From: Flavobacteriaceae bacterium
GTDB taxonomy: Bacteria > Bacteroidota > Bacteroidia > Flavobacteriales > Flavobacteriaceae
Direction: 5' to 3'
NCBI GenBank assembly: GCA_947453885.1
Contig: CANGIF010000006.1
Coordinates: forward strand, 1-64,000
DNA length: 64,000 nucleotides
Part shown: piece by piece, positions 5,058-39,562 of the stretch
How positions within the stretch are numbered: the first letter of the stretch is position 1
Layout of the letters: each line of letters opens with the position of its first letter
Notes under the pieces: generated by a model
What the model was told of the DNA's origin: nothing
Database searches by the model: none
The model's input: the letters and a program-made list of their open reading frames with translations, nothing else
Program-made: the position numbers and the translations under genes

Positions 5058-5101
5058 AACATCCATTAGAAAATTTTTTACGTTAGAAATTCAGTTGTAA
5101 G

Positions 5102-5328
5102 CATGAAATGAAACCATATGAGGCTGTCGCTTCCGACGACGGAGAGAAATGAAATCAAAAGAAGGTAGCAACTATTGTTGCTAACATGAAAAGAATTCAA
5201 ATGAGGCTGTCGCTTCCGACGACGGAGAGAAATGAAACCAAAAGAAGGTAGCTACACTTGTTACTAACATGATATGAAATCAAATGAGGCTTTCGCTTCC
5301 GACGACGGAGAGAAATGAAACCAAATGA
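5102..5328. repeat. 83-bp tandem repeat, about 2.7 copies (5102-5184, 5185-5267, 5268-5328) with a near-invariant ~37-bp core
   Basis: Core ATGAGGCT(G/T)TCGCTTCCGACGACGGAGAGAAATGAAA occurs three times at 83-bp spacing; visibly more GC-rich than its surroundings. Confidence 0.95.
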
Positions 5329-5455
5329 ACCTAAAAATTCAAATTACAATTACAATTTTTTATAAAAGCAGCTGTTTGATTTTTCATAAAAGTTTAAAAA
5401 AATTTACGTTATCCAAAAAAACTTTGCGTTATTTGCGCCACAATCCAAATTCAGC

Positions 5456-37554: not shown

Positions 37555-37605
37555 TAAACTCATAATTCATAACTCATAATTCATAACTCATACTTCACAA
37601 CTCAC
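37555..37605. repeat. Short tandem repeat (14-bp unit CATAATTCATAACT)
   Basis: aaactcataattcataactcataattcataactcatacttcacaactca. Confidence 0.8.
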
Positions 37606-37973
37606 TCCTTCATCATCGCCTCAATTTCTGCCAGAGTTTTGCCTTTCAGCCATTCGGTTACAGTGGTAGGAACGGTTTCGTTACGCGTTTTTAGGGCGTT
37701 TAGGGCGTGGGTTTCGGGCAGGTCCATTTGGCGCCGTGCCATCAGGTCGTTGGGCGTGCAATTCAGGTGCAGGCAAAGCGTTGTGAGCTGTCGGAAACTC
37801 ACCTGAACGGCTTCGCCTTTCAGCATTTTGTTTGCCGTATTACTATTAATGCCTATTTTAAGCAAGTAAGCAGAAGGATGCAGGATGTTTCTAGACAGTA
37901 GTGTCGGCTTTAAATCGAGCACTATCGAACTTTTGTGGGGCTTGAGTGTCCCTCTTTTTTTACGTCTTATCAT
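37602..37973 (-). CDS. XRE-family helix-turn-helix regulator
   Basis: NTANKMLKGEAVQVSFRQLTTLCLHLNCTPNDLMARR HTH pattern. Confidence 0.82.
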   Translation of the reverse strand: MIRRKKRGTLKPHKSSIVLDLKPTLLSRNILHPSAYLLKIGINSNTANKMLKGEAVQVSFRQLTTLCLHLNCTPNDLMARRQMDLPETHALNALKTRNETVPTTVTEWLKGKTLAEIEAMMKE

Positions 37974-38040
37974 CTTATTTGGTATTGGTTCGCCTTTACA
38001 AAATTAAAAATAAATTCTATACTACTGCACTTTTATATAG

Positions 38041-38208
38041 TAATAACACAACTTTATGTACTAATAACTCGACTTTATGCACTAATAACACGCCTTTATG
38101 CACTAATAACACGTTGTTATATACTAATAACACGACATTATGCATTAATAACATACCTTTATGTAATACTAACACTACTTTATGCATTAAATACACAAAG
38201 TTATATAC
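38041..38208. repeat. 21-bp tandem repeat array, 8 clear units plus degenerate edges
   Basis: Units such as TAATAACTCGACTTTATGCAC, TAATAACACGCCTTTATGCAC, TAATAACACGTTGTTATATAC, TAATAACACGACATTATGCAT in exact 21-bp register. Confidence 0.95.
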
Positions 38209-38512
38209 TAATAGTAGTATTTACAAGTCACTGTACGTTATTTTTGCTTTAAGGATAGCTATTACTAGCCTACAGCTTCAAAAAAGTAGCGTACCGTTCA
38301 ATAATAGTAAGGTGTTGCTTTATAAAAGTGCATCAAGATGGTTCATTTTTGATGTACCAATTGGTATTGTTAACCACCGGTTGATTATTAATGCATTATA
38401 GTAGTATTTTTTTGATTTTTGACGCTAAAAAAAGACCTCAATGTGTTTTGTGAAAAGAATAATTTATTATTTTTACCAAAAATCAAGTATAAACCCTTTA
38501 ATTTAACACATT

Positions 38513-39448
38513 ATGACAAAAGAACAAGAATCTTTTTTCGCTATGGCATTGAAAGTAAAGAATTTTTATGCCAAAAATACCGTTGCCATTAGTGCTTTGG
38601 CAGCAGTAGTGCCGTTTTACACCCAACTCAGCACACTGATTTCGCAACTCATTACTGTCGATATGGGCAGTCGTGCCGACATTTCGGGCTATGCCCTGAT
38701 GAAAGCATCAAAACGCAAAGCACTGGAAGCTTTGGCTCAAAAAGTAAGTAATGGTTTAACGTCTTATGCGTTGATTCAAGGCGATATGGAACTTCAAAAA
38801 CGGGCTGATTTTACGGCTAGCAGTTGGTATTTATGCTCTGAGGAAGCATTGGTAACTCAGGCTAGTATTGTATCGAATTTGGCTACACCACTGGCTTCAA
38901 GCTTGGTGCCGTATATGGTTACAGCTACCGATGTGACTAATTTGACTGCTAGTATTGCTACTTTTATAAGTGTCATTTCGGACCCCACTTTAGCTATTGA
39001 CACTCGAAAAGAAGACAATGTGAATGTGGTGCTTAAAATTGATGACATCCGAACGTTGTTGACCGAAAAAATTGATGTTTTGATGCGTGGTTTTGAGTTG
39101 ACTAACCCTACCCTTTTTGGGTTGTACGGTTTGGCTCGGGCCATAGACGTAAACGGTTCGGTAACGGCACCAACTAAGGTTGTGGATGTTGCGCCAGAAA
39201 AAGTGGTGACCATTGACAAAGCGAGTAGTTATGACCCTAACCGTTTTTATACCATTGAAAACAAGGGAACCCTGTCGGTTTTTTTCAGTCTTTCTACTTC
39301 GGAAGACGTGGCAGGAACGGAAGAGGTTTTGTTAGAAGCCGGGCAAACTCGGGTTCGTTTAGCCGAAAATTTAGACCCAACGGGGGTGTATTTTATTGTG
39401 AACAACCCGAACAATGTACCTATAACGGTGCGCCTTTGGGTGGAATAA
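38513..39448 (+). CDS. Orphan 311-aa protein, alpha-helical N-terminus and beta-rich C-terminus
   Basis: Long ORF, GC-richer than its surroundings; no recognised catalytic motif; C-term YDPNRFYTIENKGTLSVFFSLS...AGQTRVRLAENLDPTGVYFIVNN. Confidence 0.8.
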   Translation: MTKEQESFFAMALKVKNFYAKNTVAISALAAVVPFYTQLSTLISQLITVDMGSRADISGYALMKASKRKALEALAQKVSNGLTSYALIQGDMELQKRADFTASSWYLCSEEALVTQASIVSNLATPLASSLVPYMVTATDVTNLTASIATFISVISDPTLAIDTRKEDNVNVVLKIDDIRTLLTEKIDVLMRGFELTNPTLFGLYGLARAIDVNGSVTAPTKVVDVAPEKVVTIDKASSYDPNRFYTIENKGTLSVFFSLSTSEDVAGTEEVLLEAGQTRVRLAENLDPTGVYFIVNNPNNVPITVRLWVE

Positions 39449-39454
39449 GTGGTT

Positions 39455-39562
39455 GGCAATTAGTAGTTAGCAATTAGCAGTTAGCGAATTGAACTTTGTG
39501 TTTGGTTCGCTACTTTTTTTTAGTAAGGGGTTGGTTAGCGGTTAGTTGTTAGCAGTCCGCAG
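39455..39562. repeat. Degenerate 7-bp tandem repeats (TTAGCAA/TTAGCAG type)
   Basis: gcaattagtagttagcaattagcagttagc and ggttagcggttagttgttagcagtccgcag. Confidence 0.7.

Follow-up and report, generated by a model that had tools for sequence, protein, structure and literature searches.

Operators of XRE/Cro regulators usually form sets of two to four sites, which are often palindromic. REP/REPIN elements and their RAYT genes (PMC8049555, PMC3733652) combine a palindromic repeat linked to a Y1/HUH transposase gene, a separate repeat for each paralog and dispersed gene-less copies. TAACTGA heptamer direct repeats form arrays in the intergenic DNA ahead of genes, including those of some Bacteroidetes, and have been proposed to be binding sites (PMC4679880). 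BrickBuilt of Porphyromonas gingivalis is a MITE minisatellite, an intergenic direct-repeat array with promoter activity (PMC4596501). CRISPR and TIGR guide arrays are regular, combine conserved with variable stretches and lie next to a protein gene. Among open-licence papers we found no description of 21-bp arrays such as those reported here.

The window is the whole stretch of Flavobacteriaceae DNA that was analysed, 64,000 nt in length. It contains an HTH ORF and an orphan ORF that are divergent, with a 21-bp array between them, where the first-pass annotation, made by reading the letters, had placed them (Pfam, TRF, lag-21 z of 12.8). The parts are:

37557-37604, no strand: 7/14-bp tandem repeat adjoining the HTH gene (border repeat; TRF)
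37602-37973, minus strand: XRE/Cro-type regulator (HTH_26), 123 aa (Pfam PF13443)
38005-38220, no strand: 21-bp direct-repeat array (TRF, register plot, lag-21 identity)
38513-39448, plus strand: orphan ORF, 311 aa (ORF)
38513-39148, plus strand: N-terminal all-helical domain of the orphan, residues 1-212, family-defining (A3/A5 alignments, AlphaFold2)
39173-39448, plus strand: predicted C-terminal double-stranded beta-helix (cupin/jelly-roll-like) domain of the orphan (AlphaFold2, Foldseek)
39444-39490, no strand: 7/14-bp tandem repeat directly after the orphan (border repeat; TRF)

The HTH ORF belongs to PF13443 with an E value of 3.1e-10 (40.6 bits, gathering cut-off 22). Upstream of the orphan, lag-21 identity is 12.8 sd over Markov shuffles; Tandem Repeats Finder (TRF) reports a core at 38032-38213 with 8.7 units, a score of 168, 74% match and 0% indel, and the consensus TTTATG.A.TAATAACAC.AC (unit TTTATGTACTAATAACACGAC). 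The 3' end of the array lies ~300 bp ahead of the orphan start codon. Some frames of this intergenic DNA are open (ORFs of 151 and 105 aa), yet the earlier description of it as non-coding-looking holds, because the arrays of the family show neither a consistent open frame nor a codon-phase bias. TRF also found the different short repeats that had been said to border the block, and we regard them as candidate module parts only. They are heptamer-type direct repeats that recall the TAACTGA-like heptamers known from some Bacteroidetes (PMC4679880), and a further such stretch lies at about 39530-39560.

With XRE/Cro operators the locus shares its layout, the HTH gene and its target being divergent across the repeats in 6/6 members of the window clade; it differs in that the arrays here hold 4-22 non-palindromic direct repeats and the HTH gene is missing in most members of the orphan family. 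Like REP/REPIN repeats, the orphan arrays are gene-linked, specific to each paralog and also present as dispersed gene-less copies (solo arrays), but they are tandem 21-bp arrays of non-palindromic units in few copies, and a Pfam search of 37 orphan-family members found no Y1/HUH transposase. The TAACTGA repeats are one conserved heptamer near start codons, whereas here the period is 21 bp, the units are unique to each locus and the arrays are tied to a protein family; a 7-bp unit is not seen, excess identity at lags 7 and 14 being -0.01. BrickBuilt has a 23-nt repeat in one MITE-like element of one species and no associated protein family; a MITE of its type would enclose the array in a conserved leader and tail that carry terminal inverted repeats, whereas sharing of 100-150 bp of one flank is what some solo arrays here show. 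The orphan arrays also differ from CRISPR/TIGR arrays in having no distinct spacers, a far shorter unit and units that abut at 21 bp, and Pfam and PADLOC searches of the orphan family returned no effector nuclease, cas/tas or Nop domain.

The window clade comprises three genomes, and a related divergent HTH gene was found across the array in all six of its members (the window, its paralog on contig C23, two in G013 and two in G615). These HTH-bearing members are closest to the window protein or are alike in length and type of C-terminal region, and their unit profiles are weakly similar (0.22-0.48). The HTH gene is absent in every orphan-family member outside this clade. The first-pass annotation had proposed the HTH gene, the array and the orphan as a possible self-contained module and had set against this proposal orphan homologs with no HTH neighbour or repeat array in most genomes, or arrays at unrelated loci. 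The three parts do stay together in 6/6 window-clade members, but the HTH gene is no general partner, and most orphan homologs lack it while keeping the array. Arrays were also found at other loci, often beside other orphans or as solo arrays matched in sequence. Since the HTH gene is limited to six members, the module of three parts exists in one clade, and array plus orphan is the general form. If the array is an operator, its regulator in the window clade is most likely the divergent XRE protein.

The array, not the HTH gene, is the general companion of the orphan. The criterion for an array was at least 41 matches in 63 positions, at a lag of 21 or 42, in the 800 bp before the start codon. 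By this test 38 of the 51 testable orphan-family members have an upstream array of 21-bp period, or 43/51 when the five weak ones are counted, and eight have none at the threshold used. The same test was passed by 13 of 623 ordinary ORFs of the window genome (Fisher 9e-40 versus the orphan family), several of which are array-linked orphans themselves. The 21-bp signal is mostly missing downstream of the members and at 22 control loci. Inspection by eye and TRF agree that all four paralogs of the window genome have such an array just upstream, and the unit differs in each: besides the window unit, ATAGAGAAGGACTCGCGAGGT on C27, ATCTCTTGATAAATATATAGC on C63 and a degenerate TTAAAAGTGTATCTAATACTA on C23. 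Unit sequence varies between loci and the period is constant; the excess of identity averages 0.42, 0.43 and 0.40 at lags of 21, 42 and 63 and is about zero at lags 20, 22, 10, 11, 7 and 3. TRF alignments of 34 arrays contain about 936 mismatched versus 89 indel columns, so indels are present yet seldom shift the register.

At least one open frame was found in 22 of 25 arrays, and the other three are closed in all six frames; the open frames differ in strand and frame, and mismatches show no codon-phase bias. Palindromic operator units were likewise looked for and none rose above chance (mean best dyad 3.76 versus 3.70 in shuffles). An Rfam search of the arrays gave no match, and promoter consensus sequences between array and gene were in no excess over chance. 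Inside the units, conserved blocks alternate with variable ones (combined p 1.5e-7, single arrays being mostly not significant), and some arrays, such as those of G867 and C27, are almost uniform. An A-rich core is repeated in the three Stygiobacter paralogs, mostly in steps of 21 bp, and one of the three shows steps of 10, 20, 21 and 31 bp. Because 21 equals 2 x 10.5 and because of these steps, the Stygiobacter spacing, in this one genome, fits helical phasing better than a codon or RNA unit.

Three other contigs of the window genome, C23, C63 and C27, each carry a paralog of the window orphan (51, 27 and 20% identity). In a first alignment-based search, CarboxypepD_reg domains brought in unrelated receptors in large numbers, and later searches used the N-domain by itself. 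About 50 relatives were found across Bacteroidota, with up to seven per genome, and the profile of the N-terminal 212 residues has relatives in 19/396 Bacteroidota genomes but in just 2/351 sampled Flavobacteriaceae, the window genome counted, which makes the family patchy. The early suspicion that the orphan is multi-copy and lineage-expanded was thus borne out, with four copies in the window genome and up to seven elsewhere. Stygiobacter, which we take to belong to Ignavibacteria, is among the hosts (three paralogs). A scan of the genome collection with the window protein gave no match, and a scan with the Stygiobacter relative matched the Stygiobacter genome alone. The window orphan has no family in Pfam, NCBIfam, PHROG or PADLOC, and a search for phage, plasmid and viral homologs of the family found none. 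Seven of 37 members have weak matches to PHROG 'major tail protein', which we suspect are due to the beta domains. An orphan-family member in G140 (L046, contig C154) is broken by internal stops and lies close to a contig end.

AlphaFold2 (37 aligned sequences) modelled the window orphan at a pLDDT of 91.8 over the whole protein, with helices throughout the N-domain (1-210) and a double-stranded beta-helix at the C terminus (220-311); the N-domain modelled alone reached 94.5. The structure prediction suggested in the first pass for 38513-39448 yielded a confident two-domain model. Comparison of the helical domain with the PDB, by sequence and by fold, gave nothing convincing. For the beta domain, Foldseek returned a designed DSBH, cupins and small uncharacterised phage proteins. 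In relatives the tail position holds CarboxypepD_reg, fn3 or nothing, as in domain swaps, and profile comparison shows the subfamily with fn3 tails to be homologous with the core (hhalign 97.9%, E 5e-13). Mean pI of the N-domain is 6.1. We infer that the orphan may be a cytosolic helical scaffold with interchangeable binding tails.

Arrays of the same period also accompany other orphans: three more orphan families of the window genome, not clearly similar to the first in sequence, have them, and so do some of their relatives. In unbiased stretches of the window genome, 21 is the commonest tandem-repeat period, and arrays lie upstream of the proteins at L107 (224 aa, helical plus fn3-like), L128 (218 aa), L136 (233 aa, possibly a relative of the fn3 subfamily at hhalign 86%), L179 (317 aa) and L193 (117 aa). 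Congener relatives of the L107, L128 and L136 proteins have upstream arrays of their own (L164, L167, L169), with the exception of L166, which has none, and of L163, which sits at a contig edge.

Besides these orphan-linked arrays there are solo arrays, some of which match one particular orphan-linked array. The listing for the window genome covered 2.37 Mb and holds 19 arrays, one of them the contig overlap of another; the other 0.67 Mb or so may hold partners of the C23, L107, L136 and L193 arrays. The window array matches the solo array G000:C19:6509-6708 with a profile correlation of 0.91 (0.90-0.92); 4000 permutations gave a null of 0.34 (sd 0.07) and never exceeded 0.63. The L128 array matches the array at C5:19857 (0.91) and the C15 array matches the C36 array (0.92), while three weaker consensus pairs (0.64, 0.59 and 0.59) are borderline after correction for 171 comparisons; the null across the six pairs is 0.29-0.34 (sd 0.06-0.07). 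Across the two arrays of each strong pair (three pairs), units show the same identity as inside a single array and no register is preferred, hence these are not simple recent copies. BLAST found partners of the C27 array on C37, C46 and C3, of the G073 array 36 kb off and of the G867 array 171 kb off, and none for the G736 array. The solo arrays lie between unrelated genes with no adjoining orphan and with no common theme among their neighbours. The C19 solo array (L117:6509-6708) is 386 bp upstream of a 511-aa gene resembling a type IX secreted protein, and at L104:17716-19998 (G000:C5) a Por_Secre_tail gene stands between two 21-bp arrays, each of which matches the array of a different orphan locus.

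Some loci record duplication or loss. In G748 array and gene were copied as a unit, with about 18 versus 10 repeat units. In G519 the gene was copied and the array was not: L091:2003-3178 and L067:1288-2463 are 94% identical over a stretch that begins 6 bp ahead of the start codon and ends 17 bp past the stop codon, their flanks are unrelated, and one copy has no array. The C3 end/C37 locus is a relic cassette, since the gene is gone and what remains is the array with its orphan-proximal flank and 41 bp from past the 3' end of the orphan. An IS4-like transposase gene adjoins the array there (L235/L237, on C37 and the C3 end), with a common CAATGTCATTAAG at the array break, and the two pieces are probably one array split by an IS4-like insertion sequence. 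The partner of the G867 array was copied recently together with about 150 bp of flank, and some solo arrays share about 100-150 bp of one flank. Beside the remaining solo arrays no significant orphan remnant was found; relics account for part of the solo arrays, and the others are possible trans targets. In a search for an empty site among 250 congeners, the best match to the genes flanking the window module was 76%, too distant for that comparison, and none of the matches listed spanned both.

The reading that we prefer, tentatively and with somewhat less than an even chance of being right, is a duplicating Bacteroidota cassette of a phased 21-bp operator array and a helical orphan, served by a cooperative regulator that in the window clade is the XRE protein. 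Non-coding direct repeats at two helical turns (21 bp) would form a cis-acting operator array upstream of the orphan promoter; sites on one DNA face would bind the regulator cooperatively, and site number would tune expression. The regulator would be the divergent XRE protein in the window clade and would be encoded elsewhere in other clades. Array and gene would duplicate together, the array sequence drifting along with its recogniser, and gene loss would leave solo arrays that retain a matching consensus. The orphan would be a helical bundle in the cytosol whose beta-sandwich tail can be exchanged. The conserved architecture with its exact period, the locus-specific units, the XRE linkage in one clade, the matching solo arrays and the one relic cassette are observed, while DNA binding, regulation and the scaffold role of the orphan are putative. 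Several observations count for the operator reading: the association (38/51 versus 13/623), the excess at lags 21/42/63, the conserved and variable sub-blocks, the Stygiobacter steps, the non-coding arrays, the XRE gene in 6/6 clade members, the G748 duplication and the C3 end/C37 relic. Against it count the promoter consensus at chance level, units that are non-palindromic unlike many dimeric operators, the lack of an adjoining regulator gene at most arrays with a recogniser that is putative throughout, the eight members with no array and the arrayless 94%-identical gene copy, and TRF indel columns that, at ~1/10 of mismatched ones, are not clearly under the neutral ratio.

Solo arrays could instead be read as parts of a trans-acting network, in which the orphan or a partner recognises its own and the matched solo arrays, as a regulon or by DNA bridging. 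Six consensus-matched pairs within one genome, the equal between- and within-array identity of the strong pairs and the BLAST partners of C27, G073 and G867 speak for it; however, three weaker pairs do not clearly survive the 171-comparison correction, a relic cassette accounts for one solo array and recent copying with flank for the G867 partner, G736 has no partner, the solo-array neighbours have no common theme, and the modelled N-domain (mean pI 6.1) has no DNA-binding fold. We consider it unlikely, though a serious contender, and we judge in the same way its wider form, a phylum-wide array-addressed system (bridging, regulon or RNA-directed) in which a locus-specific address with universal two-turn spacing would be used by several unrelated protein families. 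It is rather unlikely that the arrays are selfish minisatellites, dispersed in a REPIN-like manner through cassette duplication, through transposition or through gene conversion, and that the orphan is their carrier or a passenger: gene-less intergenic copies, the common flank of about 100-150 bp in some copies and unequal repeat numbers in near-identical paralogs would suit this, but the orphan has no transposase or HUH domain, no terminal inverted repeats were noticed in an unsystematic look, and a phylum-wide 21-bp period with unrelated units is left unexplained. The constant unit length, the conserved and variable blocks, the locus-specific sequences and the adjoining protein family with no assigned function could also point to a transcribed array, with the orphan using its RNA as tandem guide-like units or as a protein-binding molecule; this we think improbable given no Rfam match, no palindromic or hairpin unit, no strand preference by eye, no nuclease domain and the near uniformity of the G867 and C27 arrays. 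That ordinary neutral minisatellites chance to lie in intergenic DNA is very improbable; slippage does generate tandem repeats and 21 is the commonest period in the window genome, but neutral slippage would not fix a single period, and the arrays are tied phylum-wide to one protein family (p 9e-40) and to three more orphan families. Finally, a heptad-repeat peptide (7 codons = 21 bp) was considered, with an open frame in 22/25 arrays in its favour, and rejected as barely credible: strand and frame are inconsistent, three arrays have no open frame, there is no codon-phase bias, and the G529 steps of 10, 20 and 31 bp in Stygiobacter break the frame.

The newness of these arrays rests on their missing description in sequence libraries and open-licence papers and not on a proven mechanism, and it would be smaller if the operator reading is right. 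If upheld, the findings would define an unrecorded class of Bacteroidota genetic element, in which several orphan families have fixed-period, locus-specific arrays with matching arrays afar. They would also offer a handle on multi-copy hypothetical proteins, the question being what reads the 21-bp spacing. Even as a mere unusual operator array, a fixed period with free sequence would be a directly testable regulatory design.

Other repeats were noticed on the way. At L119:13214-13963 (G000:C21) a 21-bp array separates a 163-aa orphan, on whose downstream side it sits, from a DNA methyltransferase-like gene. L074 (G589:C11) has an array of 66-bp period with the repeat GTCGCGCCCCGCGCGGGCGCGTGGATTGAAAC, CRISPR-like in appearance, near an orphan. 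In the window itself, outside the module, an 83-bp / 41-bp tandem repeat with units containing GTCGCTTCCGACGACGGAGA occupies positions 5094-5329.
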